NCBI GenBank assembly: GCA_031213475.1
Contig: JARUPZ010000031.1
Coordinates: 250,501-314,500, forward strand
DNA length: 64,000 bases
Direction: 5' to 3'
Origin: Nereocystis luetkeana
Lineage: Eukaryota; Sar; Phaeophyceae; Laminariales; Laminariaceae
Shown: piece after piece, positions 4,794 to 63,947 of the stretch
Numbering within the stretch: the first letter of the stretch is position 1
Layout of the letters: every line of letters begins with the position of its first letter
Notes under the pieces: model-generated
Databases searched by the model: none
Seen by the model: only the letters and a program-made list of their open reading frames with translations
Told to the model about the DNA's origin: nothing
Program-made: the position numbers and the translations under genes

Positions 4794-4830
<37 letters not shown>

Positions 4831-12145: not shown

Positions 12146-12154
12146 TACCAGGTA
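12146..12154. repeat. TACCWGGTA 9-mer
   Basis: Exact copy inside an AT-rich run. Confidence 0.8.
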
Positions 12155-17600: not shown

Positions 17601-17623
17601 TACCAGGTACCTGGTACCTGGTA
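17601..17623. repeat. Three overlapping TACCWGGTA units
   Basis: TACCAGGTA, TACCTGGTA and TACCTGGTA in series, each sharing its terminal TA with the next. This is what repeated insertion of a 7-bp unit at the same TA would leave. Confidence 0.9.
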
Positions 17624-18391: not shown

Positions 18392-18407
18392 TACCAGGTA
18401 CCTGGTA
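18392..18407. repeat. Two overlapping TACCWGGTA units
   Basis: TACCAGGTACCTGGTA, a perfect 16-bp palindrome. The same arrangement occurs at 52737. Confidence 0.9.
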
Positions 18408-19878: not shown

Positions 19879-22800
19879 ATGGACTCCGAGCAGCAGCAGC
19901 AACTCCAGAGCCTCACCGACTTCTGGAAGGAGCCTTGGACTGCCTCTACCTGGGAAACTTGGAGCAACCAGAACCCAGCCTACCAGGGCCTCCAGCCATC
20001 TTCCTGGATGTACACAAGTGAGAGGAGAGAAGATGATATTGATGTACAGCAGTACAGCAGCAGCAGTAGCAACAACAACCACCCTCCCACATTAATATCA
20101 ATACAGTAGTAGTAGTAGATCAGATGTCTCTGCATGCCGCTTATGTGAGGGTTTTTTCAGGAAGAAATTTGCTCCGTCGCAAGTAGTCTCTCTCCCCATC
20201 ATCGGGGTCTCAAAGCTGGTGCTTGTAAGCTCGTCGTTCATGCCCTCGGCACACATACTACGTGCCCGTCATCGCCGAGTGTTGTATGCTCTCTCTGTGT
20301 ACAAGCACGGACTCCGACCGCTGCTGGGGCGTGCGTGCGTGCGTGCGTGCGTGCGAGCGTGCGTGCGAGCGTGCGAGCGTCCGTGCGTGCGCCAGGACCG
20401 ACATGCGAGCGAGTACAAAATAGTCACGACGAAGGATGCCTGCTGCGGGCGGGACTTAAATATATATATCTTTGAGAGAGAGGGATTTGCCGATTTCCAA
20501 AAATTCGGAACACGCGCGTTTTTTGTTGTTTCTCAGGTTTTCTTTTGTCTTGTCGAGAAACGAGCTCGAGTGTACGTCGTGCGGCGCAAGAGACACGTCC
20601 TACAGTACCCCGCGTTCGCGAACGCAGGATACCGAATGCGACTGACTGATCGGTGTACATGGAGGCATCATCTGTGGCAGAGTTTTTTCGCCGAGAGCTT
20701 TTTTTTTTCACTAGGAAAGTTACCGCCGGGCATTGTCACAGTCTGCGGTGGCATATTTCCGGCCACGGCTGTATGCGTCGTAACGTGCTATTAATACCGT
20801 AGGCTTGAGCCGTACACATTGTACGCGCAGAGCAAGTACCGCTAGTAGTACGTACTACTACTGCTGCTGCGGCTGTTTGCTCTGGCTTTCTGTCTGTAGT
20901 CGAAACCCGTGCATGATGTCAACAATGGAGGTACGTCAGCAAGCACTTTCGGGAAGCGGGGGGGGGGGGGGGGGGCGTCCCTGGCGTACAACCATAAAAA
21001 CAACCAACCAACCAAGTAGTCCCTGCCATGATATTTCTCATACGAATTCACGTTCCACCTACCGAGATATATATGCCGAGTCCCTCTCGTTTCAAATAAA
21101 AAAGTACTGTTCTGAATACCTTCCCCTGCCTCTCAGCTCTGCAGCAGTATATACCTGGTACCTGGTATACCTCAACAACCTCGTACTGAGCCCACCGCTT
21201 GCTGCAAGGACGGCATACATACACATAAATAGCACGCACACAAACATTATGCGACACATGCACAAAAGTATACGAAAACGTGGTAAGAAGATTAGAACGT
21301 TGAACCAGCGAAGTCTCCCGCCCCCACCCGCCCCCCGTTGTCCGCAGGTCACGCGCCTAAGCACGCCAACAACGACAGCCTAGACTTCGACTTCGGTTCA
21401 TTTTCCAGCGACGGCACCTCCGTCTCCGCTTCGTCCAGCATCCCTTCCCCAGAGACGCCTCCGCCCGAGCAGCGCCACCAGCAGCAACAGTGGGCTAACA
21501 GCAACACCACCTACACAAGTAATGGCCGACTCGTCGAGCACCACCATCACCACCACCACCACCACGGCTCCATGGGATCAGTGTCTCCCTCTTCCGGTCT
21601 GACCCCAATAGCGTCCCCGCCGGGCCTCCCCTCGCAGCAGCAGCAGCAGCAGCAGCAGTTCGGGCAGCCCACTACCAGCGGGGGAGTGGGAAACCACTCC
21701 CACCACCCGCACGCCATGCACTCGGTTCGCGCGATAGGCGGCGGTGGCGGTGGGGGGGGGCGCGTCAACACTAGCCGTTCATCGAGCATCGACTCCGACT
21801 CGTCTGCGCTCGGCCTGTTCGGGGGCGGGGGCGGGCCTTGCGCCTTTCAGATCCCAGGCTACCGCACGGTAGAGCTGATGCCGACGGCGCAGCAGCGCCA
21901 GACACTTCAGAAGGTAGAGGGTAGCCTACGATTTGTTTCTTGCGGATGGTTTAATCTTGGCTTTTGCTCTTTTTTTTTAGAACGAGGAAGACGTTTTTTT
22001 TTTTTTTTACGTAGTCTCTGCGCTGTACCACATGACATGGGGGGCGGGGGCGGGACTTGGGCGCGACGGGTTGACAAATTTCCACCCGACAATTTCCAAA
22101 AAAAATATTTTTGTGGGGGAGAACGGGAGGATGGGGGGAGGGGTGGAAATAATGGCCGGCTGCGCGTGGTTGTTGTGTGTTTGTTCACGATTGTTCGCAA
22201 GAGTTTTATCCGCCTGCAGGACTCCCTTCTTCGTTACGCTGCCCGCTGTACCCCCCTCCGTCTCTTGCCGCCGCCGAGCCTCGGTTGTGATAGTTCCGAT
22301 TTGTCGGAAGTGTTCTCATTTTTTTTTTTATCGACCTGATGATGATTTCAATTTTTTTTTCATTTTTTGTTTTGCTCGCGGTCCGAGACCGCACGCTATA
22401 TACGTAGATGCCGTTAAGTGCTTGAGCTCTTGCAACGCCGACTGGTCGACCTGCCACTGCACTCGCTGACGAAGCTAGAAGCAGCGTTGCCCCATACCCG
22501 ACACACACCAGCCTGATTCCGTCACCCGCAAGCACCACGTACCGACGGGTTGAGACTGGGTATGATTCGGGGTCACGTTAATTACCGGTATCTCCGTTCT
22601 CCATCCCCCCTCCGTCCCCACCCCCCCGCCCGCAAATACACCCCCCTAGAAACAGTGTCACACTGCTGCTGCTGCTGCTGTATCGAGTGAACTGCAACCG
22701 GTATACCGTGTGCTATTAGTAGTGATTCGTAGGGATTGTTGGGGCAGGACTGCCGATGCCAGCATACCTGACGCACGATACATTTATACCTACCTGGTAG

Positions 22801-29416: not shown

Positions 29417-30595
29417 TACCTGGTACGTGGGTATATAGGGGTTCGTGCGGCTTTTCTCCCCCCCCCCCCCCCCCCCTCTAGGCGTTTCTTGCGGGGAAAA
29501 TTACAGGGGATAGGGGAGAGCGCCCGGGGCAAGGGGTGCAGACAGCCGAGCGAGGTCTAACATACTAGGTGACGGTGATTTAGAAACAACACCACTCGCT
29601 CGCTCGCTTTGTTTTTTGTCACGTACCCGGTACATACTACTGTATGTATACATGTATGTATGTACAGTACAGTACAGTATTTTTTTGTTCCCGTGGTTTC
29701 ACGCCTCTCACGCGCATGTCGATTTTTTTTTTTTGTGTTTTGTTTTTGCACCGTAAGGAGTATACGTATGATACGCAAAACAATTTTTACGTTTTTTTTT
29801 ACTTAGAAAACCGAAATCGGGGGCCCAGTTTTCATTTCGTGTTCCGGCTTTTTGTTTCGTTTTTTCGCATGGTGGGTTTTTTTATAGTTTGGTCGTGCTG
29901 GTGCGCATCGCTATTCTGGCGGTTTCAAGTCGTCGGTTTTAAGTGTCGAACCGCCTCGGTTTTTTTACGCTCAAGATCGTCTCTTTTTTTGCTTGCCGAG
30001 TACAAATATTGTCACCAATCAGTTTTTAAAAGCTGTGAATGACTGGTTGATTGAGGACGGGGGTCATCTTGTACGTGTTCTTCTATCGTACGTCGAGCTA
30101 TATAACTTGTTGTAGTTTGTGCTGTGTGTGTGGGGAAGGCAAACTCGTTACGGCAGCAGTAGCAGTTGTAGTTGTTGTAGCAGGTTCTCCACTCTCTATT
30201 TTTTTTGCTCTTCAGTTTTTCTTTCGTTCGTTCGGCTCTCTTGTGTGAGCTTATAGTAAATAAAGCGTGTTTTAAGTTGTTGCTGGACGCGTAGGGTATA
30301 TCAATCCGCGTGGCGATTGTGCGCTTTTTGCCGGGAGGTGGGACTACTATACAGTAGTAGAGTAGTGGTGGTATAGTGGTGGTAGAAGGTGGACGATGTA
30401 GTATGTGACATATGCATGCATGTGTCATGCTTGTTGCTTTTGGTGTCGTCGGTACATCTATCTGTCAGTATCATGCATCATCATTATTGGTCGAGTCGGC
30501 CATGCACCACCGCCGAGTGCGTGCATGCATGTGATCGAGAGCTTCTATGGATAGACTCGAAAAAAAATTAAAAATGATATTCTGGTAAATATTAT
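29417..30595. other. Intergenic, no gene identified
   Basis: Begins with a TACCTGGTA copy at the gap edge. T-rich with short runs. No exon signatures. Confidence 0.5.
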
Positions 30596-31714: not shown

Positions 31715-31877
31715 TATTAATAGCAGCTCATCACTACCTGGTATGTACTTACCTGGTACTCACTAATTTCCACGCATTCAGCGACCGAGCGAAGATACAC
31801 ACACGCTCTCGCGCTTTCAGCGGCAGGAACGAAAATTGTTGATGGAAATCTATCATGATCACCCACCTATACTGCTA

Positions 31878-32488: not shown

Positions 32489-33106
32489 TACTATTAATAA
32501 TATCATTGCTGGTGAAATGTACGATTGACCACAACAAAAAACTACCCAAACTACACTAACACCCTTGTAACACCCCCCCCCTACCCCCCACCCCCCGTCT
32601 CTGAACAGCGGGGTAGTTAATTTGTGAACCTCGCGTGGAGCCGTTCGAGCCTATACCAGGTAGTTCGAAGTTCTTAGCAGTCTCTGGAGACCCAGGGACC
32701 AGGGGGGAGGAGGGTGTTTACCAGGTTCTGACACGAGGAAAATGTATTTTTTTTCTTGAAAAGTGTTTTCGTTCATGGTCGTCGTAATGCTGGAACTCAC
32801 GACCAACTGTTATGGCTCACTGATTTTTGATTGAATGAGGCCGAAAGGCCGGTAATCACCTGGGTTCAGGTATTGGGATTGTATTTGTAGTACTTGGGAG
32901 GCGTATCTTAGATGGAAAACCAGGGGGGTTTCCCCAGCGAGGCACGAACCTTGCTCTCAGTCTCTCAGCGTGCTCGAAAGAAATACTTAACCATCCAACA
33001 CACGTGAGTTCCATCGAGTACCTGCTCAATAGGCAAACCTACAGTAACCCTACAGTAACAAGGGATACAAAAGGCCCCGACCTTGAACTTAACAAGTGGC
33101 GTCCAC

Positions 33107-33208: not shown

Positions 33209-33937
33209 CACAATAACCCCAAGTCCCGCCGTCGACGCCATTCGAACCTTAGTTTGGGTACGAAGGCGATCGCGTGTACATTCACCTTTTTTATTACTGT
33301 AGTACGTCGCCCAATAGATTGGCACGTTCTTAATGTACCAGGTAGTAAAATGGTGATCCAATCAATAGGCTCAAAAAATGGCACAAATGATGGAACCATC
33401 GATGATATCGAAATGTCTCGGAATTTGTATCGCAACGAGGTCAGTTCTTCTTTTCGCCCCCGTAACGTCGGGAGTAGAGTGGGTCGCAACATTTCTTGAG
33501 ACTACCCCTCCCACCCGGCAGCAGGATTAGTATTCTTACGCTTGTATGCCTAGATATCATCGACAGGTCCTAACCCGGCGAAGAGTACGCGATACGCTAG
33601 TCTACTCAGCGCGGGGGGAAATACCAGACGAGACGTCCCGGCCGGCGCAGGAGGCCTCATCGAACCCAATTCTTGTATTTAATTATTCACGGTAGAGAGA
33701 CAATTCTTGTATTTAATTATTACAACAACATTGTTACAGTAGTAATAGCATATTTCATCGGTGAGGCTATATACCCCAAGATCCATCTATCTACCTCCTC
33801 TATACCACTCACTCTGTGGACGAAAATATACAGATAGTACGAGTGTACAAGGGATGTTACAGTAGGTCTTCGTAGGTACATCCCGACGGCCCTTAAACCT
33901 CCGATCAGAGTGTGGTGCCAGGTGTATTATTATGATG

Positions 33938-37903: not shown

Positions 37904-38015
37904 TTACGGGGGACCACAGTTAATAGGACCTATGGTATACCAGGTACATGAAAACCTATATATTTACCCATTTTTACTAACACTATTTGGTCCTATTAAC
38001 TATGGCCCCCCGTAA
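37904..38015. mobile_element. Family A MITE, copy 12
   Basis: TTACGGGGGACCACAGTTAA to GGCCCCCCGTAA. Contains TACCAGGTA at 37938-37946, where copy 24 (57395) has only TA: GGTATA[CCAGGTA]CAT versus GGTATACAT. Confidence 0.92.
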
Positions 38016-40742: not shown

Positions 40743-43700
40743 ACTCGATATCGTAGCATGGCCGGTTGGGGGGGGGGTCGTATGGAGTCTAAGACGAGCC
40801 CAGGCCCTCGGGGGGGGGGGGGGGGGGGGGAATTCATTGCCATGGTGAGGGCGGGGGTGTACTCATCCCATGCATGATCGTAATCTTGGGGGTGGGGGGG
40901 GAGCAAGGGAAGCAAAAAGGCAGGGTTGAAGAGGACGGGGGGTGCGACAGGGTGGTCGTGATAATCGGTACCGGCACGAAAAGGGGGGGGAAAGGAGGGG
41001 TGGGGCTCCTGAAAATCGCAACCGACCACCACGTAGCAACCCCCCATGTGTGTGCGTGTTCTTCACATTGGACCCTTATTTCTTATTTCTACATGTTGAC
41101 ATCCCGCACACCCTGTGTCCGTGGCGATTCTTCAATCCTAGAGATGTACGAGCTCTGTGGTCACACGCTAAGACACAAACATACTACATTGGAACGCAGT
41201 GAGCATAGTAGACGGGGCAATAATACCATGTCATCGTACTGGACGCGACCGGAACGACGTACACATTCTAGCATGCGATCACAGAGAGGAAATTCGAAAG
41301 AAATAAACAAGATGAAAACCGGGGGGAAAACAACACAAAAAAGGTGTCGCGCCCCCCCCCCCCCCCCCCCCCCTACCTGGAGGTGTGACAACCTACATGA
41401 AAGAAAGAAAAAAAGCAATGTAACATAGTACATGAACAGAGTTAAGACTGTGAACCTATTACGGGGGACCATAGTAAATAGGACCTACGGTACACTCAAA
41501 AATGAATATATTTACCTATTTTTACTAACAATATTTGGTCCTACTTACTGTGGTCCCCCGTAATAGTCATACATACAGCTTCCACCATTGAAGGGCCGAC
41601 AAGTGCTTCACTCGTCAAACGGGCACCCATGACACGCCATCCCACCCTCTTCCCTTATCGAGGGTAGCGTATTACACCACTTATTCCCGAAAATTGATGG
41701 TACACACCGTATGTACCAGACGAACAGGACTAAGCCCGACCCTTGAGCCAATCAGACCCAACCAATCAACCAACCAACCAACCAGCCTTGAGGGCCAACC
41801 CTATCGGTCTCGCAAATAGAATACGTCAACCATTCCAGCAAAAATTGTACCATTCAGAACGGGGATATAAGAACCATTCCATGTCAACATCAGAGTCTAT
41901 ACGTACATGGATTATATTCCCGTCCAGAGTGGTGTATACGCTCTACCGCCCTCCTATTCCCTAGGTTGTACCGCCTCATTACATGTCACCATATTTCTTC
42001 AAGGCCATCCATCCCCCTCGGCAGCGTCACTCTGAAACCACTTTCGTCGTTGACCATCGAGAGTGAAGTAACCACGCCCCACGACCCACCTGGGCGTGCC
42101 TTCCCACCCAAACCTGCTACGCGATTACCGTCCCACATCTGCATTTGGCGTCTCGGCTGGGAGCTCTATTTTGGGAGCAACCCTTGCTTATGCGTATGTT
42201 GGAGCGGGTGGTTTTTTAAATCCTTGTCCTTTTCCAATGACACTATGCGTCAACCCTACTACCGATACCACCCACGGCTTTCTCGTTCGCCTCCAAGATA
42301 AGACGAGTAGCCAGGAACTTGATACATCGAACGGACTCCTATCCTACCCTCCATTCATTTTTTCTAAGCACCGCGCCTTAACTCCGAACTCCTCCTCGAG
42401 CGACATCTTTGGACCCCACCTTCCTCTCCCTTTTCGTCCCTTCCCGTTCCGAAAAACGCCTCCTCCCTGTCCCTGTAACCCAGATCGCCTCCTTTGCAAC
42501 CCACCTTCTCCGTTGTCCTTCTTTCCTTCCTTCCTTCCTTCCTTCCCATGCACACCTACTAATCACGTATGTCCCTCAAAACAACGCGGCTTACCCTCCA
42601 AACTGCTTCTTTTTCACACGCCACCCTCCTGCCCTGTGCACCCTTCCTGCCTGTCCCTAAACACCTCCTGCCTGTCCCTGGCCCCAAAACACTACTCCTT
42701 TGCGCGCCACCTTTCTCCCTTGTCACTCCATTGTTTCCCTGAAGACGTTCCATCTGTCGCCTGAACAGCGCGGCTGACCCCGGACACCTTCATTGCACCC
42801 CACCCTCCTCCGCAACCCTTCCTCTTTTTTCACCCGAAACACCTCCTGTCTGCGTCTTCCAACCAACGCGGCGAGCCCCGCACTCGTCATCTGCACCCCC
42901 CACCCTCTGGAGTATCCTTCCTTCCTTCCCTTCCCTTCCAACACTTCTCCCGTCTGCCCCCAAAACAACGCGGCTTACCCCCCAAACTGCTCCTTCCCAC
43001 CCCACCCCACCCCACCCCACCCCACCCCACCCCACCGCTTGTTCGCGCGTGCGAGGATAACCCTAGCTCTTTTCGGCCAACGCATTTCTGGCTCGCGGAG
43101 CTTGTCATCTGAGGAACTAACGGCCCAATACTCATCCTCCTTTTCCCCTTCCCTAAACACCCCTTTCGTCTTCCCCAACCACTCCGGCCTTAGCGATGCA
43201 CAGGATCTCCGGCTCGGCTTCACCCAGCTTGAAAGGGTAACGCACGCCCTATCCCCAATACTTCAGGTGACCGTGACGACTACTATTAATATACCAGGTA
43301 GCATCTCCGTTCCTTTCCACGAAAAAAACAAAAAAATAAACACACGCCGATATATCCCAGACCCCTCCACGAGCGACGCGATGAGCGCTGTCGTGTCCAG
43401 AGAATCGGCACACGCCTACTATTCCGTGGGAACATATGGCGGGGGGGCATAGTAAATAGGACCCACGGTACACATAAAAACCTACATATTTGGCTATTTT
43501 TACTAAAAATATTCGGTCCTATTTACTACGGTCCCCCAAAATATTACGGGGGACCATAGTAAACAGGACCGTACACATAAAAACCTACCAGTATATGTTT
43601 TGCTATCTTTACCGAGAATATTTGGTCCTATTCAGTATGGTCCCCCGTAATAGTAATATAGTAAACATAGGGGGATACATTGTTTCGGGGTCCATCGTGA

Positions 43701-46367
43701 GTCCTGATTACTGTTAATATGCCCCCCCCCCCCCCCCGTGCTTGCTCCGTCTCGAAAGGGATGCGTGGTCAATGGTCAAATGACTAAGGCAAGCAACAAA
43801 TGAGTACGCCCCCCCCCCCCCCCTTTTCAGTGCTGGAGAAACAAAAGCCCGCGCGTCTCCCGTACCACACTCGGCCGAGAATATATCCCACGTTTGGACT
43901 CGGATACGAATATCAAACATGGTTTCAATTACCAGCCAAGGTGGTACAGCGTTTTTCAATCCCAGCCTCTCCTTGATCCTCCCAAATTTTCCCTATTAAA
44001 AAACCGCGGCTCACGCGAATGGTCTCCCACAACAGCACATTCGCATCCCACCCCCTCTCCCTTGTCCTCCCCCCCAATCCTTTTCCCTAACTAACGAGCA
44101 CGCCAACTTACCCCGAACTCCTCCTCGAGCGACATCATGAGCTCGATCGTGTCCAGAGAGTCGGCGTCGAGGTCGTCGATGAAGTTCGAGTCGATCATCA
44201 CGGAACCCTTCTTTCCCAGCTGCTCTCCCACAACGTCGATAACCTTCTCGCGCACGAGTCATACCACACCATACCATACCATATCATACCATACGGGCAG
44301 GGCAGATGGGGTGGGGTGGGGTTGGGGTTGGAGGCGGGGGCAGGGGTAGGGGGTAGGAGAGGGGTAAAACTACCACTATACACTTCTCTTCATTAACCCT
44401 TTTAGGACCCCAGTCCCGTTTTGGGGACAAACTACTTACAGTTAGAGTGCGTTGTCCCCGACACATGGGAGTGCGGTGCTATAAGGGTTAAACGTACAAA
44501 AAAGCTACAAACCGATGCTACTATAACAGCAATGTATGCAACGAAAAACCGATCCCACCAGCGTACCAAACAAAGATGCTACAGCAGCATTACGGGGGAC
44601 CACAGAACACGATCTACGGTACATACAAAAACCTACCGTATGTACTTCGCTATTTCTACTATTACGGGGGACCATAGTTAATAGGAACTGTTGTACACAT
44701 AAAATCCTATATATTTGAACATTTCTACTAACAATATTTGGTCCTATTAACTATGGTCCCCCATAATAATAACATTTGGTCCTACTTACCATGGTCCCCC
44801 GTAAATAGACTTAGCCCACCCCGAAAATAGTACCACCCTGGCCGGAGATTTAAGGACCATTTAGATAGTAATATCAATATCAAGCGGTCCTTATATTGAC
44901 AGACACCCGGAGTGTTATCAGGGATTAGTATGTATTGATGGTGGCCCAGTGTGGATTTCTTGCTGTTCGAGTTTAGGGGATGCTCGTGTATGTTGTGCGT
45001 TGTGTGTTTTTTCTTAGACGCGCGTCGAAGAGGGGGGAAAGGGCTGGAGTATTTTCGCGTTGAAAAATGCCTCCCAAGGCACGGACCGCAGTAGGGAGGG
45101 GGGAGGAGAGCCTCTACTATTTCGGGGGATCACTAGTAAATAGGACCAAATATTGCTAAAATAGGGAAATATATACCTGGTAGGTTTTTGTGTGCACCGT
45201 AGGTCCTATTTACTTTGGCCCCCCGTAAATACCTACCACTCTGTCCCGAAATATGAGAACCGTTTTATTTGATTTTAACATGAAAGCGGTCATTATTGTT
45301 TCGGAACAGAGTGGTATGTCACTCCGGATCTGAGTTATGACTATTACGGCGGATCATAGTAAACAGGACCGTACGGTAACACAAAAACCCATATATTCCC
45401 CTATTTTTACGAACAACATTTGGTCCTATTTACTATGGTCCCCCGTAATAGGATGGAGAGAGAAATGGGCGAATATATTGAATGGGAAGAAGAAAAAGAA
45501 AACAAAAACTGCTGGTAGACTGCAGAATTAGGACTACAACACCATCATCTCTTGTGTACACCTCACTTCAGATTGTCAACATCAACTGGGCCGTTACTAT
45601 TAATAGATAGACCCTGGCAAGGTCTGAATCGAAACTATTACGGGGGACCCTATTAAATAGGACCTACGGTAAACACAAAAACCTACCTGGTGTATATTTA
45701 TCTATTTTTAATAACAATATTTGGTCCTGTTTACTACGGTCCCCTGTAATAGACCGTTACTACGCCCGTGGCAATGTCTCAACAGAAACTGGACTAGTTT
45801 TATACCGCGGCAATGTCCGGCCAACAGCGTGTGGCAACCGATACGGTGCGGGTCTGCAGAGGGCCGAGGGTGCCTTCTGTGCTGTACGGTGCGAGAAGTA
45901 TGGTACCATTCACCACCGTCTGTCGCATACCGTACCATGCTGCAACGTCACCTACTACGGGGGACCATACAATAGTAAATAGGACCAAAAATTGTTAGTA
46001 AAAAATCCTAAATGATACCAGGGCACAGGCTTTTGTGTGAACCGTAGTTCCTATTTAATATGGTCCCCCGTAATAGTACCATACTGACTGTACCTACTGT
46101 TAGAATACCGCATCATATATTACATGCCATACCATGCTGCTCGTACCATACCGCACCATACCCTACTGTACCTACCTACCAGGTATACCATACCGCGCCA
46201 TATATTACGTACCATACCATACTGCTGTATGTACCATCACACGCACACCCACCTTCTGCTCGAGCGTCTCTTCCGCCATGCGCACGGCCGTCACCGAAGA
46301 CGACCTTGCCGCTACCCTCTGTCCCGTGATGAGCGAGGTGGGAGATACAGGGGCGAAAAACGCAACG
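40437..46367 (-). CDS. Plastid-type acyl carrier protein, 5'-partial
   Basis: Exons in transcript order: 46367-46253, 44243-44112, 40514-40437 (TAG), all phase 0 at the joins; 107 visible residues. ACP carries growing acyl chains as thioesters on 4'-phosphopantetheine for type II fatty acid synthesis in the plastid. The carrier motif DDLDADSLDTIELMMSLEEEFG is split only for quoting here: DDLDADSLD, then TIELMMSLEEEFG; the modified Ser is residue 67. The C-terminus VEIAEEEAQKMVCVKDAVDYI matches the usual helix 4 region. The first visible exon reads VAFFAPVSPTSLITG before MAEETLEQKVIDVV; AFFAP resembles the heterokont ASAFAP plastid-import motif, so a signal-peptide exon (ending at phase 2) should lie upstream but I could not place it. 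Intron 2 (3.6 kb) contains two decayed partial copies of the DSLD exon. Confidence 0.93.
40675..40741. repeat. Poly-G tract of about 65 bases
   Basis: Uninterrupted G from about 40676 to 40741 in intron 2 of the ACP gene. Followed by GTACTCGATATCGTAGCATG and a second G-run at 40811-40830. Length is likely unreliable in the assembly. Confidence 0.95.
41459..41563. mobile_element. Family A MITE, copy 13
   Basis: TTACGGGGGACCATAGTAAA to GTGGTCCCCCGTAA, with TA flanks. In ACP intron 2. Confidence 0.93.
42370..42412 (-). pseudogene. Partial copy of ACP exon (SLEEEFG end)
   Basis: The minus strand repeats GATGTCGCTCGAGGAGGAGT TCGG, i.e. MSLEEEFG, about 1.7 kb downstream of the true exon end at 44112, with a similar flank. 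It lacks the DSLD part and the GTAAGT donor. An exon fragment duplicated inside its own intron. Confidence 0.75.
42540..43040. repeat. C-rich degenerate ~100 bp repeats
   Basis: Recurring (A)CAACGCGGCTTACCC / AACGCGGCGAGCCCC and ACACCTCCTGCCTGTC blocks at about 42575, 42650, 42760, 42850 and 42955, ending in a CCCAC array (42995-43035). Open frames are compositional. Confidence 0.6.
43292..43300. repeat. TACCWGGTA 9-mer
   Basis: Exact copy in ACP intron 2, next to the second decayed exon copy. Confidence 0.8.
43368..43420 (-). pseudogene. Decayed copy of ACP DSLD exon
   Basis: The minus strand reads CADSLDTTALIASLVE, aligned with DADSLDTIELMMSLEE of the true exon. About 80% nucleotide match over ~45 bp around GTGTCCAGAGA(A/G)TCGGC. 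It keeps the Ser codon but no flanking splice sites. Confidence 0.75.
43436..43540. mobile_element. Family A MITE, copy 14
   Basis: Diverged left end (ATGGCGGGGGGGCATAGTAA), right GGTCCCCCAAA. Directly abuts the next copy. Confidence 0.85.
43544..43650. mobile_element. Family A MITE, copy 15
   Basis: TTACGGGGGACCATAGTAAA to GGTCCCCCGTAA. Contains CCTACCAGTATAT, a shortened variant of the CCAGGTA insertion. Confidence 0.92.
43723..43822. repeat. Poly-C-bounded ~75 bp repeat, copy 2
   Basis: CCGTCTCGAAAGGGATGCG, TGGTCAATGGT, GGCAAGCAACA and GAGTACG between two poly-C runs. Same arrangement as 23040-23190. Confidence 0.75.
44393..44491. mobile_element. Family B hairpin, copy 6
   Basis: TTAACCCTTTTAGGACCCCA, TCCCGTTTTGGGGACAAACT, and right arm TTGTCCCCGACACATGGGAG to AAGGGTTAA. 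In ACP intron 1. Confidence 0.9.
44590..44804. mobile_element. Family A MITE, copy 16 (outer, interrupted)
   Basis: Left part 44590-44661, right part 44767-44804. Split at the same TTTCTACTA / AACA core position as the outer copy at 34557. Confidence 0.88.
44662..44766. mobile_element. Family A MITE, copy 17 (nested)
   Basis: TTACGGGGGACCATAGTTAA to GGTCCCCCATAA, TA on both sides. Second case of nesting at the same internal TA. Confidence 0.92.
44831..44919. mobile_element. Family E hairpin, copy 2
   Basis: TACCACCCTGGCCGGAGATT, inner arms AAGGACCATTTAGATA / CAAGCGGTCCTTATATT, right CACCCGGAGTGTTA. Diverged ends. Confidence 0.65.
45121..45228. mobile_element. Family A MITE, copy 18 (reverse core)
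   Basis: TTCGGGGGATCACTAGTAAA to GGCCCCCCGTAAA. Contains TACCTGGTA at 45174-45182: AAATATATA[CCTGGTA]GGTTTTT, against AAATATATAGGTTTTT in copy 11. Confidence 0.9.
45234..45316. mobile_element. Family E hairpin, copy 3 (best preserved)
   Basis: Ends TACCACTCTGTCCCGAAA and TTTCGGAACAGAGTGGTA are near-perfect inverted repeats, with a second inner pair AACCG / CGGTC. 83 bp, non-coding. Confidence 0.85.
45344..45448. mobile_element. Family A MITE, copy 19
   Basis: TTACGGCGGATCATAGTAAA to GGTCCCCCGTAA, TA flanks. Confidence 0.92.
45638..45749. mobile_element. Family A MITE, copy 20
   Basis: TTACGGGGGACCCTATTAAA to GGTCCCCTGTAA. Contains CCTACCTGGTGTATATT, an imperfect form of the TACCTGGTA insertion. 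Confidence 0.9.
45955..46073. mobile_element. Family A MITE, copy 21
   Basis: CTACGGGGGACCATACAATA to GGTCCCCCGTAA. Carries a GATACCAGGGCACAGG stretch in the core, possibly a mutated 9-mer insertion. Confidence 0.88.
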
Positions 46368-46908: not shown

Positions 46909-47267
46909 AAGTCTCGAGGGTCGGGTTGGGTCAGCTGAGCTGTGTGTGAAAACTGCCACGGGGTGTGTACAGCAGATACCTGTTAGATTATAGGGTGGTC
47001 CACAAAATCTGACGGTTTTCGTACAGGGATATCGTCTTGTGGATTACGGCAGATTCGAGTGCCAAGCTGAACAGCAAGCAGTGCTGTACGTACGAGCCCC
47101 GGAACAAATAAAGCAAAATGAGAATGAGCAGTGAGAACCGAGAACCACACCCAACAACCGTTACCACCGCGAAAACTTGCTGTATACCTGGTACCAAGTA
47201 TATGGGATGGACCGCTCTCATCCTCACGGGAGAATAGGATCGCTGACTTCACCCCTCTCAAATCTAC

Positions 47268-52690: not shown

Positions 52691-52809
52691 TTACGGGGGA
52701 CCATATTGAATGGGACCTACGGTACAGACAAAAACCTACCAGGTACCTGGTATATATTTTGCTCTAATAATATTTGGTCCTACCAGGTATTTACTATGGT
52801 CCCCCGTAA
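52691..52809. mobile_element. Family A MITE, copy 22 (two 9-mer insertions)
   Basis: TTACGGGGGACCATATTGAA to GGTCCCCCGTAA. Carries CCTA[CCAGGTACCTGGTA]TATAT at 52737-52752 and GGTCCTA[CCAGGTA]TTTACTATGG at 52781-52789. Removing the bracketed bases restores the family consensus. Confidence 0.93.
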
Positions 52810-53089: not shown

Positions 53090-54560
53090 ATCAAGGGTGG
53101 AAACCCCCCCCGTTGTCACAGTGCTACCACCCCTCCCTTACTTTCAACAGTCATTTCGTACTATGGATGGATTCGTGTGGCTACTTCGTCTATTGTACGG
53201 ACACAATGTGGCCGTTTTATCATATACTTCACTTTCCCCCTCGGTGGCTATTAATAGTCGACTCCCAAGTACCTCTTTTCCACCATTCGTAGGCGCGTGT
53301 TTCCGAGCGCCACCTCCTACGATTTCCTTCGTTCCTTTAACGGAAATTATTCGATCTTCCTGTACTGCTCATCCGTGAGCCCTTCGACATTATTAGTGTG
53401 TCCTGTCGTTCCTGGTGAAAGTACATCAGCTAGCCTCATGTACCTCCATGCCATTTTTGGGGGTGTTCTTCCCGAATGTTCTATGCATCACAACCGTTGC
53501 CACATCCTCCCCTGTGAACATGCTCGCGAAACTGCCCCTCCTGACCTGAACGAGTGCATGGAGAAGCGTTGCTCCTCGTTTGCTGTCAATGCTGCTTAAT
53601 ACGTAAAACCGTCATTTGTGGAGCTGTTAGGAACAAAGATCCTACCTGGTATATCTGGTACTCTGTCTGCCCCCGCTGATATATATGGGAACAGGTAACT
53701 CTGAGTCATGCCCCATCCCGCTTGTGTTCCTACCGCTATACCCACTGTTCTACTGCCTTGACCGGACACGTCGCCACGCAAACCTCTTCGTACGGGCTAG
53801 CTATCAAGTGATCCGCCCCGTCCCTCATTGTTTTACCCCGTTCGCAGTTGAACGTGAATCCGCTACGATTTTGCAGCGTGAGAATGCGCTGTATGAGTGT
53901 GCGCGTCAACTCGTCTCCACGCTCCATCGTACTGAGAACGCTACCACCATGAACAGTGCAATACTTCCTGCCGGTATCACCACCTTTTGGACCTGGTTCG
54001 TCGTGGCCCTCAGTTCCTGCTGCATCGGCCGCGCTATTGACTCTAGGTGACTGCGTCGTAGTGCTGGAGCTTGTTTCACGAACACACGCGCTCGCGTTTG
54101 TTCTGACCTCGTGAACGCCATGTATTGCGTCGTCACCAAATCACTCCTTAGGGGGTTGTCTGCCCTCAGCTTGTCGCACCAACTCGTTGGCGTTCCGAAA
54201 CTCGTACGCTACCGCTAACTATGATACATGGTTCGATATCAGGGAGTCGTGTGCGTTTATTTTTCCAGCCTCTGTTTCTTTGGATCACGCGAACAAACCC
54301 TTAGTCTCTACCGCCGTGAAGTGAAGAGTCCGTGTACTCTCATTGTGCGTTGGTCTTTACCGTGAGGCTCCCTCGACGTCCCGAATAGTTGAAAAAAAAT
54401 GGTTTCGGGCCGCAAATCGCCGAAAGCTACGGAAAGGAGACAGAACCAAGGCCCAGGTCTGCGCTCGGGTCTGGCACAGGGTTTATGGAGGGCGTACGAC
54501 TGAACAGTTCCGACTCTTCTTGCTTCTTAATTTGTTTTAAGAACAAGTAAGGCTTGCTGA
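53090..54560 (+). other. Open-frame cluster, unidentified, possibly decayed coding DNA
   Basis: Frames at 53043-53378, 53297-53599, 53685-54050 and 54343-54540 on the plus strand have mixed amino-acid composition rather than simple-repeat composition. I recognise no family and find no consistent exon chain. Confidence 0.2.
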
Positions 54561-54706: not shown

Positions 54707-54715
54707 TACCTGGTA
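54707..54715. repeat. TACCWGGTA 9-mer
   Basis: Exact copy TACCTGGTA in intergenic DNA. Confidence 0.8.
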
Positions 54716-55693: not shown

Positions 55694-58600
55694 TTACTTG
55701 CTGTGGATGCCGCACTCGGTCTTCTCGGAGCCGTCCTTGTTCTTCATGCCCTCGAATCGGCCGGACCGTTCCCCGCCGTAGCTGAACCAGTTCTCCAGAG
55801 GCACCTGGCGAAAATAAAAAACGACAGCAAAACGAGCGAACGAGTTAATTCACAAAAACGAAAAGGACGAAACAACTACAATTTCATGGAAATAACAACA
55901 ATAAATATGGAAAGAAAGAACAAACTACCTGGTACAGGGGAAAAAAAGCATACCAGGTACCATATTATGATGGAACGAAAACCGAAACAAATACGGAATA
56001 AACTGAGCAAGATGCGACCAAGACGAACAACGAAAAGCAACCTTTCACATACCGGTAATCGCCCGATAGAGCCGAAACCCTAACCCAACTACCCCCCCCC
56101 CCCCGCCCTGCCCGATCCCCGGGCACGAACGCCTACATACCTTGCGGGTGCTCTGCATGTCGCCAAGCGAGGAGAATCCGACGTCGTGGAGGGGGTGGTA
56201 AGGTACGTTGTGCTTGCGTAGGTAAGTCCAGCAGTCCTCGAAGCCCCAGAAGGCAAGCGGGTTGAACTGCGACCATCGTGACAAATAAGTGGCATGGCGG
56301 TGGTGGTACGGTATGTACCGCACGACGAAGCACGGGAGAGTCAATCAGACGGCGCGGTAATATTTCTAGAAACAAACGAGCAACAAAAGAGACCCGCGTC
56401 CGTGTCGGCGACAAATACCAAAGAGAGTTCTCGACTAGCCCATCTCCGATACCTCTCCCCGCGAACAGTTGGGCCCATCATGGGTCCCCCGTCCTCCCAC
56501 AAGGAGGCCCTCCAACGCAACGCCATCATAGTTGGAGTGCACATTCGCGATGACATCAAACAAGAAAGATGAACGCAAGCCTCCCCCCCGCCTCCCCCTC
56601 CAACCCCCCCTCCCCCCCCGGAGCACAAATATCCGTCTGACCTTGCCACCCTCCCAGATCGGCAACGCAGCGCGCTCGAAGCCGTGGTCCCTGCGGCGGC
56701 CGTTGATCCACGCCTCCGTGTCAGCTTCCTTAAGGGCGCGCATGAGCGGCTCCACCTTGCACTTCTTGTCGTACTCGTCGATGTCCTCCATCCAGTAGTC
56801 CTCGCCGTACCTTTTTATATTTTCGAAAGTACGGCGGCGGGGGGGGGGGGTTACAGTAACCGATCAAGCTGACGTCGAATGGTAGGCGGCATCCGAACAT
56901 AATTGTTTTGGATGGAAAAAAAAAAAACACACACACACACACACCTCAGCTGTACCGTCGATACGCATCCTAGCAAGCTGCGGGTGATAAATCGATTGCG
57001 CGTATAAAACTACGTTTTGTACTACCTCATGCAGGATATACAGTTCCTATATGAGGAAGGCAAAATCTGAAGCTGCAGAGATCAAGGAGTGGGTGGGTGT
57101 CTATGCTTGGGGAAATATATATATATCTATATAATATATTATATATTATATATATATACTTCGAAGTATAATTAATCGGAGGTTCACGTAGATTGCCACG
57201 AGTGGGAAATCCCCTCCCCTCCTCCGGATGTGTATTTCATACCGGCACCTGTTATTCCATACCGGTACATGATATTACATACTACAAAAACAAAACATGC
57301 ACTCGTACTTGCACGAGTTAAAAAAAAAAAAACAACAGCGAAACTAAGTATTTCGCCGAAACTCACACCAGGCACCAGGGTAGATGGACTACTAATACGG
57401 GGGACCGTAGTTAATAGGACCTATGGTATACATAAAAACCTATATATTTAACGATTTTTACTAACAATATTTGCTCCTATTAACTGTGGTCCCCCGTAAT
57501 AAGAGGCTGCACGTATGACAGTGGGAGGAAGTGCGCGCAGAGCGAAATCAGGTATTTACGTCTTCGTTCGCCCTTATAGATTGCACCCCTTTGGGGGCCA
57601 CAGCCACGTTCTCGAGAACAACTTACACTCGCAAGTAGTGTACGGTCAAGATTGCGGGGGTGGGAGGGGTGGCAAAATTGCACCCACACGTAGGACACAA
57701 ACTACAGTACTTCGAAGAAGAGTTGGATCATTTACTGCAGTACACAGCAGAAATGGACCCGGCAAGAAGAAACGCCTACTCGTAATCTGAGCGGGCCACA
57801 CCATCCTTGGACAACCTTGAGCAATATAGCCCATTACATTGGACTAAGCGTAGCGCTCAACGCTGAGTGCAACTTATTAATCCGAAATTCATACGTAACA
57901 TCCGCCAAAAAATGAGCCATATGTTATTGTCTGGTTATTTCTTGTTCGCGGGCCGGTACTGCTGTATAGGGTAAAATAGTGTATCGGAACGTCAACGATT
58001 GCCTGGTTCTTTCAAATTCGCGGGCCGATACTGCTGTATACGGCGAAGCAGTAAATAGGCCCTTCAATAAAGCCTTCCTGGTTCTTTCTCAGTCGCGGGT
58101 CGGTACTGCTGTATACGGTAAAAGAGTGAATAGGCCCGTCAACAACATATCCCTGGTTATTTCTTATTCGCGGGCCGGTACTGCTGTATATGGTAAAAAT
58201 AGTAAGTAGGCCCCGTCAATGTCTTCGAGTGCTACTCGCGGCAACGCCACCCCACGGATGGAAAACCACTGTCCTCACTTGTCGTAGAACGACTGTTGAG
58301 TGTCGCAGTCGACGCAGTGGTACACCTTCGCCTTGAAGCCGTAGTGCTCTTCGACCTTTCCAGGGGGGAAAAAAACAAAACAAACAAAAAGGGCACGGGA
58401 CAGGAGGAGTGAAACAAAAGTAGGAAAATACCGTTGGCGAAACCCCTAACGGCTCGCAACGTTCGAGGGAACAGGCAAAAAAAGAGGGGGGCACGGGGTA
58501 CGGGGAAGAAGACACGAGACAAAAGAGGCATATGAATCCGTCGGCGCAACAAGTGACGGTTCACAACGACCAAGGTCGGACAAAAACACCAACCATCCCC

Positions 58601-61600
58601 CTTTTACCCTTACGATGGGGGGAGGGCTCTCGTGCATCACGAAGGAAGGCGGCAACTGGATACCGATTCGCGTAGTGGGTCAAACGTCTAGGCACGCCTT
58701 CTCTCTCTCATCGAAACCTCTCCTCCCCCTTCTCACCTCGTGCAGGAAGTCGACGCTCTCGGGGAAGAGGAAGTAGGTGTCGACGAAGACCACCTGGATC
58801 TTGTCGAGGAGTCCGGCCTTGGCGATGGCGTCGAGGATGACGCAGTCGCCGGCGATCAGGGCCGTGGTGAACAGAGGGCTTTTCTTGTTCTGCCGCGACG
58901 CGTCGTTGAATGGTTGGCACGAGGAACACGTTAAGGGTGGGGGGAGGGGGGGGGAGAGGACGGTTAAAATAACCAACAAAAACATGACGTACTTGTACTA
59001 AAAAGGACAAAAAAAATCGAGAACAAAACTACCAGACGAATGAAAAAATGACGTCAGTACCGTAGACGGGCAAAGGAAGGAGAAGAAGCGAGGTGTATCT
59101 CTTGCACGACCACACACGAAAGGCTTGCCACCCAAAGCGAGCGACCGAACGCGAAGATGAAAAAAAAAACGCATGGAGTGCCTGCGGTAGCATACTATAT
59201 AATATTATCCGCAAGAAATTCTCGCTCTAGAACCAAAGACTCTATTACGGGGGAGCCATAGTAAATAGGATCTACGGTACAGGCAAACACCTATATATTT
59301 CCCTGTTTTTTCTAACAATATCTGGTCCTACTTACTACGGTCCCTCGTGATAGTATAGGAGACCGCCGTTTGATCTCTTGGCTCAAAACTCCGTGCACAA
59401 AACATACTATATGACAGCCAGGCCGTTACACCTAGCTCGTACAAAGCTGCGGCGACATCGTGGAGTTGCACCCCCCCCACTACAGCCGTGCATGACACGA
59501 GAACACCCCCCACACACACACACCGATGACTACACCCCGCTTCCCCTCCTGGGCACTCAACCGGTATTAATAGTGCACGTGAGAAACCGTGTGACAACTG
59601 CACTGCCGCGCGTTTTGAGCGGCGGCCCGGGATTTTCATCTACCAAGTATATATCAAGCACGGGTTGTGGCCTACCCCAGCGAGCAGGTAAAAATGGGCG
59701 CGTACGTCACAACCTGACCCTGGCTCTACCGCGGTCCCTGCCTCCTCCCGCCCGACGAGAATCTGGCGGGGGACGACGCTCCTCCGCCCCTTGGGCGACA
59801 GGCTTAACCCGATTTAGGACCGCAGTCCCGTGTAAGGGACGAATTACTTGTAATTTTAGGAGGTTTGCTCTCAAAACGGGACTGAAAACTCTAAAAGGGT
59901 TATTACCCCTATCCCACGCCTTGAGAAGCACACGCACGATTAAGGCGGCCAAACAAGTTCACACCTCGTGCAGATCATGTACAGATCATTCCTACGTCAT
60001 CCTTTACACAGATTCTTCAGGGCAGACATAACGTAGCAATGATCTAGCCTGTGTTGCCGGGTGGGAGCCGAAACATCTGCATGATCTGAACGATCTCGCA
60101 CACGTCCCCTAGGTTAGATGTGTACCATGTACTATGCAGATTCTGCACAGCATCTCACAACGGTTAGGAACTAGGTTATCTACTGTAGATAGATCAGATA
60201 GATCATGCTCTGTTCCAGATGTGAACTACCGTGGTTGAAATTACGGTATACTTAACTTTTCAGCACGTAGTAAAAGGGTTTTACAACTGCGCCCACGGCT
60301 TTGGGGACACCTACGCTCAGAGTTGGAGTTGGATCGTTTCGGGGCACTACAGAATATGACCAAAACAACCAGGTTTGGTACCCGCGTACCCCAGAACATG
60401 ACCGAAACAACCAGGTTTGGTACCCGCGTACCCCAGAACATGACCAAAACAACCAGGTTTGGCCCCCGTTTACCTACCCGACTATGACCAAAACAACCAG
60501 CTTTGGTACCCGCGTACCCCAGAATATATATACCCTGTGTACTGTTAGTAGACACACCCTTGAAAGAGTAAACTCACCGCTACCACCGCCTTAAGGGACT
60601 CCATCAGCTGGCCCTCCAGGTACACCATTCGTGCCTCTTCGATTTCCTGTTCATGTACACCATCCACCCCATCCAAGAGCAAGCGGAGAAGCCGAAGGTA
60701 ATAGGGAACCACGGGTTGACAAAAAAAAAAAAGAGGCGCAAGGGGGAGGTAAGGAGGGACCAAAAGGAGGCGTCATTGTTGCTGTTGGCCTGGGACGGAG
60801 GGGGGGTGCTCGTGCACCACTATCTTCTTTTCGCGCCGTCTGAGACACTTTCTACACATCAGTACAGATCACCGATTCCCACAGAATGATAAATTAGTTC
60901 AGGGCAGATATATAGACATATGATCATTATGATCGGTACGATCTAGCTCATGTTGCCGGGCGGGAGCCGTATAATCTGCGTGATCTAGCCCATGCTCCCT
61001 GGGTTTAATCTGTACTATCCATACACAGATCCCGTGCAACATTTGATGACGGGAGATCAGGATCTAGACGATCTACTGCAGATCTTGATCTGTCATGCGT
61101 GTAAGTATACGCTCATTGCACAATGTTTTGGCAAGAAAAAAACGTACAAGCGAACACTATGTTGGACATGATCCAATTCCAATAACTATCCTGTTGACCT
61201 TTTGGCCCCCTGGATCCCGGGGAGTTCCTTGCTACCAGGTATGAAGGCATGTTATGTGGTGGTATTTCTGTTGGTACTGCTATTGTGGATGAGCGGCAGA
61301 AAAAGCTTCTGGCAGATGGCTAAATAACTGTCATTTGGTGGTACATAGTATTACCAGCGACAATGGTGATCAGGACCCAAAACATATACCAGGGTACGAA
61401 GCATTACACTATAAACTCTACCTGGTATATTCCAGTATTTTTATCAAAGCATCTTTGGTCCTCATTACTATGTTCCCCTGTAATGCAGTATTATTATCGG
61501 TAAACCTATGGTAGGCAAGATTTCCCGACTATTAACAATATCTAATCGGTAGGTGTCGTTAGCAACTAATGGACTTCGGTCGGCACGTCGGCTGGCGAAG

Positions 61601-63139
61601 CAAGCTGATGGCCAGCTAACGTGCCGACTCAAGTCAAGCGGAAGCAAGCCAAATCAGCCCTCTCCGACCGAGGGCGCCCCGCCTAGAAAGAAAAGGTGTC
61701 CCGCACTGAACAACCCTTCCTACATGTATCAAAACCCAAGGAGTCGGAAAGTCGGCTCATCCAGGAAACGAAAAACTACTATTTACAGTAGTCCGACTAA
61801 GAAGTTAGTTGGTGATCTAGGGCGGGCCGCCTCACAGCTCTTTTTATTGGTATGTATGCCTCAAGTATATTTTTTGCTTCGAAGGAGAAGCGGAAAAAAC
61901 TCCAGTCAAAAACTACAGCAGTACTTGTCATCATCTGGTCGTACAACAAGAGAGGGTAGCTTAACCCTTTTAGGACGGTAGTTCCGTTTCGGGGACAAAA
62001 CATCCAAATTCTAAGTAATTTGTCCCCAAAACGGAACTACCGTCCTGAAAGGGTCAACAAATATTCGAGCAAAAGGTTGACAAACCCTGTACACGGGACG
62101 AAAAGAGAACCTACTCGAACCCCAAGTCGATCAGACCCAGTCAACCAATGGTTGGCGCCAGTCCCTTTGTCTCGTACACAAGAGTGCGTCAACCATTTTT
62201 CGCTCTACTGAAAATATACCAGGTATACCCCATTAATAGGTATGTTTTTATTGAGGAAGGTTGTTAGACAACCTGGTGTTTGGAACGGCAACGGGTGGAA
62301 AGATAAAAAGGAACAGCGGTAAAAAAATCGAAGGTGGGGGTTTCACACGGAATCAGAGGGATGTTAAGTACGGGGGTAACACTCGAAAGACAAAGAGGAC
62401 ACTCGTAGCAGAATCAATCGCACTTCAAGAGAGGAAGAGACTACAGCAGCGGGGGCAGCGAGATAGCCAGAGTCGATAGGTATCGGGAGAAGCCCAGCAC
62501 GAGCAGCGGAGAGTCAGGCGCCGAGCAGGGAGCGGCGTAGATCCATCAGGCGTTGTTTTTTTGGGGGTTTCGGGTTTGGGTCTGTGTTTTTTGTTTTCTT
62601 GTTTTTTTTCGGAGGCAGGATGGTACATCTCGGAAACCTTCCGTATATTTTTATTGGTACTTTTTTAGCGTATATATGAGCGGCGGGAAAAGCTCCAGTC
62701 AATATCACTACTGCTGTAACTTCATTCACGTCGTGAGCTGATATTACTCGTTATCATACGTTTCCACATCAGCATTCCATGGCCAACAGGAAAAAAAAAT
62801 GGATTATGTGCATATATATGCCACGAAGCACGGAAGAATTTCCACACGGTGTACGCCGGGGGCGAGCCCGGAAGCGACTTTTTGTGAGCTGAAATCTTTC
62901 AGAAGTGCACTGAACCAAAAAATAAATCGAACCCCATCAGGAATGTACCCGCGTTTTTGGCGACAGACTCCTTGGAAATAGCGTGGGCTCATTATGACAG
63001 AGGTTCACTACATGGCCGGAGGCATTTGGCGGGGGGGACGGGGGAGGGGGGAGGGGGGAGACAAAAAACACATAAAATGGCAGCTCACCTGGTTGAGCTC
63101 GGCATCCTTCCCCTCTCCGTAGTCGGTGCCCTTAGGAAT
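55694..63139 (-). CDS. PAPS reductase (CysH type), 7 exons, 5'-partial
   Basis: Exons in transcript order: 63139-63089, 60646-60578, 58889-58737, 58355-58279, 56810-56642, 56266-56141, 55804-55694 (TAA). Total 756 nt, 251 visible residues, with phases agreeing at all six joins. The enzyme reduces 3'-phosphoadenylyl sulfate to sulfite, using thioredoxin, in assimilatory sulfate reduction. Signatures: LFTTALIAGDCVILDAIAKA (nucleotide-binding P-loop-like region), VVFVDTYFLFPESVDFL, KVEPLMRAL (135-143), WINGRRRDHG (151-160), FNPLAFW, YHPLHDVGFSSLGDMQSTRK and the C-terminal catalytic ECGIHSK (Cys 246). The Fe-S cluster cysteine pairs of APS reductases are absent (KKCKVEP and GDMQSTR in their places), favouring PAPS as substrate or a cluster-free APS reductase. 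The donor after WEGGK is an unusual GTCAGA. The first two visible exons are only 51 and 69 nt. The upstream targeting region was not found in the last 860 bases. Confidence 0.93.
55926..55959. repeat. Inverted pair of TACCWGGTA 9-mers
   Basis: TACCTGGTA at 55926 and TACCAGGTA at 55951, 16 bp apart, in the last intron of PAPS reductase. A very short candidate for an element with CCTGG ends, although the interior looks like ordinary intron. Confidence 0.6.
57395..57499. mobile_element. Family A MITE, copy 24
   Basis: ATACGGGGGACCGTAGTTAA to GTGGTCCCCCGTAA. Serves as the empty-site reference for the insertion in the 37904 copy. In a PAPS reductase intron. Confidence 0.92.
57940..58215. repeat. 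~62 bp minisatellite in PAPS reductase intron
   Basis: About four units containing TCGCGGGCCG(G/A)TACTGC, TGTATACGG and AGTAAATAGGCCC(G/T)TCAA. The last unit ends about 60 bp before exon 58279-58355. Confidence 0.9.
59245..59350. mobile_element. Family A MITE, copy 25
   Basis: TTACGGGGGAGCCATAGTAA to ACGGTCCCTCGTGA. In a PAPS reductase intron. Confidence 0.9.
59804..59903. mobile_element. Family B hairpin, copy 8
   Basis: TTAACCCGATTTAGGACCGC, AGTCCCGTGTAAGGGACGAA, right arm TCAAAACGGGACT and CTCTAAAAGGGTTA. Moderately diverged. Confidence 0.85.
60350..60530. repeat. ~42 bp minisatellite in PAPS reductase intron 1
   Basis: Four units of AAACAACCAGGTTTGGTACC, then CGCGTACCCCAGAACATGAC, ending just upstream (in + coordinates) of the exon at 60578. 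Confidence 0.93.
60890..61400. other. Inside PAPS reductase intron 1: repeated GATCT words
   Basis: ATGATC..GATCTAGC(C/T)C/ATGTTGCCGGG(C/T)GGGAGCC and CAGATC words occur at 60040-60200 and again at 60910-61090, a diverged direct repeat of about 150 bp. No coding potential. Confidence 0.6.
61403..61483. mobile_element. Family A MITE, degenerate copy
   Basis: Right half is recognisable (CTTTGGTCCTCATTACTATG, TTCCCCTGTAA); left half is eroded. Contains TACCTGGTA at 61419. Confidence 0.55.
61553..61981 (+). other. Open frame of 142 codons, unidentified
   Basis: Ser/Arg/Lys-rich, low complexity, and the frame runs into family B copy 9. It lies on the opposite strand within PAPS reductase intron 1. 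No domain recognised; probably not a gene. Confidence 0.15.
61961..62057. mobile_element. Family B hairpin, copy 9
   Basis: TTAACCCTTTTAGGACGGTA, GTTCCGTTTCGGGGACAAAA, loop, TTTGTCCCCAAAACGGAACT and ACCGTCCTGAAAGGGT. The stem shows paired changes (GGTAG/CTACC), so both arms changed together. Confidence 0.92.
62060..63088. other. Remainder of PAPS reductase intron 1
   Basis: TACCAGGTA at 62217; T-rich runs and a GGGGGACGGGGGAGG tract at 63031-63060 close to the exon. No exon recognised. Confidence 0.5.
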
Positions 63140-63938: not shown

Positions 63939-63947
63939 TACCTGGTA
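63939..63947. repeat. TACCWGGTA 9-mer
   Basis: Exact copy TACCTGGTA near the window end. Confidence 0.8.

Follow-up and report, generated by a model that had tools for sequence, protein, structure and literature searches.

Short CCWGG insertions at TA dinucleotides in Nereocystis luetkeana: probable excision footprints of a Tc1/mariner-like transposon

Transposon excision scars as such are already known. A palindromic AT-rich preference around the target TA is typical of the Tc1/mariner group, and the ends of the mariner Mos1 start with CCAGG, continue as CCAGGT and leave 3-nt footprints. According to the passages cited here, the footprint length of Tc1/mariner elements is 2-4 bp (PMC7913693), the consensus excision footprints of Sleeping Beauty are TACAGTA and TACTGTA (PMC4378557), and excision of Stowaway and Osmar5 leaves TA plus short TIR fragments (1-4 bp) in several lengths (PMC1925063). 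A study in rice counted 8 perfect excisions out of 94, the rest carrying deletions or filler (PMC4423477). Ciliate IESs are TA-bounded elements that are removed in very large numbers (PMC9942856); further work is cited as PMC12477816 and PMC9976928.

We analyzed a window, a stretch of 64,000 nucleotides (G000:C31:250501-314500) within the 465-Mb genome, for which a preliminary description had claimed that copies of MITE family A differ by an insertion at TA that consists of CCWGG and one TA and duplicates the TA. All four of its filled and empty cases (copy 52693-52807, 4072-4080, 37938-37946 and 45174-45182) aligned as clean 7-bp gaps at TA, with only a part, 5110-5174, of the second member of the 4072-4080 pair being aligned, and both the form and the direction of the insertion were right. 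The copy 52693-52807 carries a double insert at 52737-52752 in addition to the claimed one at 52781-52789. The 7-bp CCWGGTA insertion at TA is confirmed as an observation. The inserts in these MITE copies, called footprints below, are the following (strand is given where one was assigned):

52693..52807, plus strand: MITE family A copy of 115 bp with three 7-bp footprints at two TAs
52781..52789: TACCAGGTA, the claimed footprint, at a site found empty 10,908 times in the genome
52737..52752: double footprint TACCAGGTACCTGGTA at the second TA of MITE 52693..52807
4072..4080: TACCTGGTA in a MITE; empty in copy 5074-5174
37938..37946: TACCAGGTA in a MITE; empty in copy 57397-57497
45174..45182: TACCTGGTA in a MITE; empty in the copy within 34600-34760

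In the genome as a whole, MITE family A is very common: the empty site GGTCCTATTTACTATGG, a 17-base piece of it, has 10,908 exact matches, a number that refers to sites, not copies, as one MITE can carry GGTCCTATTTACTATGG at both ends. The same site was filled with CCAGGTA at 113 places and with CCTGGTA at 76, whereas the reversed controls gave 0 each. The preliminary description had named two findings that would speak against it, an ancestral 9-mer and indels of this type being no commoner than other 7-bp indels. With 10,908 sites empty and 113 + 76 filled, the empty state is by a wide margin the ancestral one at the GGTCCTA site, where the 9-mer is therefore derived. The 113:76 split deviates from even (p 0.009), and the occurrence of both W states in one fixed orientation argues for more than one event; some of the filled sites may be descendants of one another. 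Insertions of 1-16 bp between GGTCCTA and TTTACTATGG numbered 608 genome-wide, of which 189 were CCWGGTA. Among the first 100 of these 608, all on C1-C5, we counted 24 CCWGGTA, 9 CCAGGGTA or CCCTGGTA and 17 single T; 37 were 7 bp long, and with 24 of these 37 CCWGGTA was much commoner than other 7-bp insertions. The predicted dominance of the CCWGGTA class therefore holds at GGTCCTA, the one site counted genome-wide, for insertions, the kind of indel tallied. Other palindromic TA-flanked inserts recurred at low frequency among the same 100, namely CTCCGGAG (2/100), which resembles a Stowaway end pair, and one starting CTTCGAAG (1/100).

MITE family A is simply the place where the insertion is easily seen. 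A motif test found no MITE motif within about 110 bp at 95 of 111 sampled footprint sites. In a LINE-like repeat, so labeled from a GDFN-like stretch spotted by eye, one copy (L029) has GACGTACCAGGTAG and three copies (L030-L032) have GACGTAG. Two copies of this repeat also contain a ~330-bp repeat (L030 about 1763-2089, L031 about 2009-2342), at different insertion places and in opposite orientation.

The word TACCWGGTA was found 35 times in the window, compared with a mean of 0.49 and a maximum of 3 in 100 shuffles, and 182,395 times in the 465-Mb genome, compared with 1,744 for the reversed-word control. A 264-kb sample, composed of the window and 20 stretches of 10 kb from 20 contigs, contained 112 (2.5 expected from trinucleotides), and ~0.77% of its TA sites carry the footprint. 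TA is present on both sides of 35 of the 149 CCWGG in the window. A tRNA scan and an Rfam scan of the window gave no matches, and a regular-expression search for the EsV-1-7 motif known from brown algae likewise gave 0. The tandem word TACCWGGTACCWGGTA occurred in 9 stretches across the whole collection, viral contigs included, and was taken as background. The word scan of the window gave the following further footprints:

4787..4795: TACCAGGTA
6735..6743: TACCTGGTA
12146..12154: TACCAGGTA
17349..17357: TACCTGGTA
17473..17481: TACCAGGTA
17601..17623: three footprints in tandem, with W = A, T and T
18392..18407: two footprints in tandem, with W = A and T
21152..21167: two footprints in tandem, both with W = T
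22791..22799: TACCTGGTA
29417..29425: TACCTGGTA, adjoining a preceding run of N
31735..31743: TACCTGGTA
31750..31758: TACCTGGTA
32654..32662: TACCAGGTA
33336..33344: TACCAGGTA
43292..43300: TACCAGGTA
46177..46185: TACCAGGTA
47185..47193: TACCTGGTA
53643..53651: TACCTGGTA
54707..54715: TACCTGGTA
55926..55934: TACCTGGTA
55951..55959: TACCAGGTA
61233..61241: TACCAGGTA
61419..61427: TACCTGGTA
62217..62225: TACCAGGTA
63939..63947: TACCTGGTA

Head-to-tail footprints at 7-bp spacing, with mixed W, lie at 17601-17623, 18392-18407, 21152-21167 and 52737-52752. Neighboring tandem pairs numbered 9 among the 112 sites of the 264-kb sample and 8 among 100 in another count, and W differed within 4 of the 9 and 3 of the 8 pairs, indicating that the tandems are not simple duplications. 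Tandem footprints imply that scarred TAs were hit again. Such neighbors are, however, several times commoner than the mean filling of 0.77% per TA gives, which is a point against a reading of the words as excision products. One-mismatch variants of TACCWGGTA were also in excess (135 against 57 expected, with the 15 TACCSGGTA places counted on both strands), most of the excess falling on transitions and on the central base. In age, the scars are mixed or moderate.

The 5-nt form is accompanied by shorter and longer words, of which the window contains these examples:

342..351, minus strand: 6-nt ladder word CCAGGG; the plus strand reads TACCCTGGTA
61387..61396, plus strand: 6-nt ladder word TACCAGGGTA
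10687..10694: TACCGGTA, a 4-nt word, in a further MITE copy at its GGTCCTA site; the window has 7 of these words
43586..43593, plus strand: 4-nt ladder word TACCAGTA within a MITE copy

The window holds 10 TACCAGTA/TACTGGTA, some of which are expected by chance. In the 264-kb sample, the CCAG form TACCAGTA was found 32 times (8.8 expected) and its mirror TACCTGTA 13 times (11.5 expected), while the CCAGGG form TACCAGGGTA was found 10 times and its mirror TACCTGGGTA twice (0.77 expected for each). Genome-wide, TACCWGGGTA has 13,000 matches and the reversed word 771. The first 100 of the TACCWGGGTA matches, all on C1, have A in 93 and T in 7, and eight of the 93 belong to one tandem array. This array (G000:C1:1304145-1308362) contains TACCAGGGTA eight times, mostly at 528-bp spacing, apparently as copies of a single footprint. 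Among the 100 listed insertions at the MITE site, the 6-nt form was represented by 9 CCAGGG/CCCTGG and 0 CCTGGG/CCCAGG. CCAGGGV at GGTCCTA gave 7 matches genome-wide (control 3), six of them reading CCAGGGG followed by TA and the MITE and the seventh CCAGGGCA followed by the MITE. AACCTACCAGGGG gave 11 matches genome-wide (control 3), with TA next in 9, of which 7 run on as MITE as judged by eye. Neither of the other two has MITE sequence around it, and one is a short hairpin (L067 208-260, CAGGGGCGTT...AACGCCCCCTG), which may be a small inverted-repeat element of a different type. Slippage in the CC/GG runs of CCWGG was considered as a source of the length forms and rejected, as it should give both mirror forms equally, whereas the ladder is polar. 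This polarity points to an element end reading 5'-CCAGGGG.

Other words in the 264-kb sample were counted as well. TACCGGTA was found at 17 places against 4.25 expected and TACCSGGTA at 15 against 2.6. The 3-nt form TACCATA showed only a slight excess (52 against 36) and no target signature, which is a further point against excision. The words TACAGCAGTA/TACTGCTGTA (35 against 0.7 expected; TACTGCTGTA 10 times and TACAGCAGTA 6 times in the window) lack the target preference of CCWGG; they may be related to microsatellites or form a second footprint family. TACWGTA, the Sleeping Beauty-type footprint word, occurred 111 times against 40 expected, with a different flank profile.

Alignment of 92 single footprints, with both sides pooled, revealed a preference, reading outward from the TA, for T at +1, A at +2, T at +3, T at +6 and A/T at +7, with position chi-square values of up to 71 at 3 d.f. 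The left and right flanks, kept apart, look alike. The palindromic AT-rich preference around TA that marks Tc1/mariner elements is present at the CCWGG footprints. A weight matrix made from 62 sites outside the window ranked the 18 clean window sites above the 2,816 window TAs (AUC 0.715, p 0.0008). A second matrix, made from all 80 clean CCWGG sites, was used to rank other words against background TAs, the p values being uncorrected for the number of words. It placed CCAG (AUC 0.77, p 6e-8, 32 sites), CCAGGG (0.82, p 3e-4, 10 sites) and CCGG (0.74, p 3e-4, 17 sites) above the background, and CCSGG also ranked above it (0.64, p 0.03, 15 sites). For CCA (0.53), CCT, CCTG, CCTGGG (2 sites only), CCC, CWG and CAGCAG, the same matrix gave AUC values of 0.36-0.54 with p >0.2. 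TACGTA reached 0.547 (p 0.048), CTAG 0.58 (p 0.2) and CGAG 0.55 (p 0.15). The value of 0.88 for TAGGWCCTA is not meaningful, such words recurring within the MITE with the same flanks. The ranking of CCAG, CCAGGG and CCGG above background TAs indicates that one and the same TA-selecting enzyme most likely produced both these words and CCWGG. Taking the polar ladder and the common target preference together, the 5 bp CCWGG are probably not themselves the inserted unit; a series of this kind is expected of the end of a transposon that has been excised. The interpretation given in the preliminary description is thus supported in part: it stands as to form, direction and dominance at the tested site, and leaves out the mechanism.

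We propose, with a probability of roughly 0.85, that most TACCWGGTA words were left behind on excision of a Tc1/mariner-like cut-and-paste transposon that targeted TA and had ends starting with 5'-CCAGGGG. Insertion at TA with TA duplication, the ladder with its polarity and the palindromic target preference common to its members are what was observed. The transposon would insert at TA, duplicating it, and later leave. If both ends start with 5'-CCAGGGG, the excising transposase could cut one strand at the boundary between element and TA and the second strand some 5 nt further into the element, and this 5-nt stagger would leave 3' overhangs 5'-CCAGG on both flanks. The overhangs could then anneal through four G:C pairs flanking a central A:A mismatch, the repair of which would yield CCAGG or CCTGG with TA on each side. 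Cuts or processing 1-2 bases longer or shorter might produce CCAG, CCAGGG and CCAGGGG. From the words left behind we thus infer a former longer element, the length of its overhangs, the annealing step and the likeness to Tc1/mariner.

Searches for the parent element covered its ends, its insertion sites and its transposase. A scan of 288 kb for inverted pairs starting CCAGG/CCTGG (14 bp with no more than 1 mismatch, at distances of 60-6,000 bp) found none besides pairs of footprints followed by TA; one such footprint-made pair lies 231 bp apart in L008. At the GGTCCTA site, none of the 7 CCAGGGV matches genome-wide was an intact element, compared with 189 five-base footprints there; this search is blind to ends with T as the seventh base, and the end searches assume near-perfect CCAGGGG. 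Among the 11 genome-wide matches of the AACCTACCAGGGG MITE site, no element with CCAG ends was found. TACCWGG without a following TA gave 124 ends, and the few recurring extensions have a common left flank as judged by eye, indicating that they lie inside repeats. Of 2,959 self-similar repeat boundaries, TACCAG was present in 2, TACCTG in 9 and the MITE end TACGGGGG in 124. A second frequent boundary in the sample, TAACCCTT/TAACCCCT (counted 92 and 34 times), points to a further TA-flanked repeat family.

The word TACCAGGGG has 3,023 matches genome-wide, for which the 38,591 matches of the reversed control are no yardstick, since the MITE end itself contains the reversed word. In the first 100 matches, which span 21.0 of the 21.9 Mb of C1, about 21 continue with TA, as expected of 7-nt footprints. 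The recurring TACCAGGGG words among the matches listed included one repeat in four copies at 3.2 kb and nine groups made up of 19 pieces of 401 bp; they were rejected as element ends, the left flank being common, at least partly, in 10 of 10 groups among the first 100 of the 3,023. Facing TACCAGGGG pairs within 20 kb numbered 2 among the matches listed (9,561 and 18,926 bp), compared with 2.3 by chance, and their ends do not match by eye. Profile searches of the genome gave 0 matches for PF13358 (its control was found in 3/14), 0 for PF01359, with the control silent as well, and 28 places for PF03184, where no CCAG inverted ends were present at the 6 loci examined. MITE family A itself was rejected as the source of the scars, as its own ends are CGGGGG/CCCCCG. 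Each genome search scores the best candidates only, so a parent may have escaped them; from its not being found, it would be extinct, very rare or without recognizable ends in the assembly.

An enzyme might instead add a 5-bp CCAGG directly, in either orientation, at a TA that it duplicates, no longer element ever having existed. This would agree with the failure of the searches made to find a parent and with 5 bp being by far the commonest size in the series, but a fixed unit predicts neither the polar ladder CCAG/CCAGGG/CCAGGGG nor a target preference common to CCAG, CCAGGG and CCWGG, and we regard it as unlikely. Somewhat less likely still is a programmed elimination resembling that of ciliate IESs, in which TA-bounded segments with CCAGGGG ends persist at a different life stage or in a different cell type and had been cut out, leaving a 5-bp scar, from the DNA that was sequenced. 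The very large number of scars, the lack of a resident element in the searches and the TA bounds, as described for many ciliate IESs (PMC9942856), would fit; however, the one-base variants are in excess (135 against 57), as with ordinary mutations of mixed age, and nothing in the data, which come from one assembly, is stage-specific. It would be surprising if the CCAGGGG-ended elements were not extinct and a dedicated excisase cleared them from the sequenced stage, leaving some 180,000 five-base scars and no element, which would make this an IES-like system with a scar outside the ciliates.

Inheritance of the 9-mer from ancestral MITE subfamilies, with multiplication by MITE amplification, could draw on three CTAGG variants, located in a stretch of about 0.11 Mb on C2, that are maybe copies of each other, and on the tandem array that seems to have copied TACCAGGGTA. 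It is largely contradicted by the counts of 10,908 empty and 189 filled at the same site, and further by the presence of W = A as well as W = T in a single orientation (113 and 76 sites; p 0.009), by the 95 of 111 sampled sites not near a MITE and by the insertion carried by a LINE-like repeat, so that it appears highly improbable. CCWGG is also a palindromic recognition word, that of Dcm/EcoRII, and a selected binding or methylation motif would have to be considered on this account. The enrichment, however, needs the flanking TAs (both present at 35 of the 149 window CCWGG), the word arises by insertion into MITEs and the LINE-like repeat, and the flank preference is common to CCAG and CCAGGG; we give such a motif hardly any credence.

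If excision by a cut-and-paste transposon is the correct explanation, one transposon lineage left scars on the order of 180,000, a part of which was multiplied later by the repeats carrying them, and then vanished or became rare; counts of resident copies would then badly understate past transposon activity. The scars would record the place where the transposase cut, the distance between the strand cuts and the end joining of the host. At 7 bp per scar they amount to about 1.3 Mb in total, and each would shift the frame of any exon that it hit. A word count with a mirror-word control could be used to look for ghost transposons in any genome.

In the portions of the open-licence literature available to us, we found no report of the TACCWGGTA word or of footprints of such length and scale with a missing parent. 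Compared with the mostly imperfect excisions of rice, the uniform scar described here is notable, but a word search is blind to scars with deletions. Excision of ciliate IESs is developmental, and precise in Paramecium, whereas here a scar is left and nothing shows a developmental programme. The end proposed here starts with CCAGG like that of Mos1 but reads CCAGGGG, and the footprint is 5 nt long. Of the Tc1/mariner traits, TA target-site duplication is seen in the filled and empty pairs, as read from the footprints alone, whereas a footprint of 2-4 bp is exceeded by the dominant 5 bp and by minor forms of up to 7 bp. We do not claim membership of the group, only that the transposon worked like one of its members, since its footprint is of a different length and the searches found no resident element with such ends or with a transposase. 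In contrast to the 3 nt of Sleeping Beauty, 5 nt are dominant here, at about 180,000 sites and with no resident element found; the TA duplication, the putative terminal bases between two TAs and the alternation of A and T at the center are the same. As with Stowaway and Osmar5, TA is accompanied by short putative end remnants in several lengths, which here are mostly 5 nt, also 4, 6 and 7 nt, and start with CCAG; the passages of PMC1925063 cited concern single loci, and here the footprints are found genome-wide.
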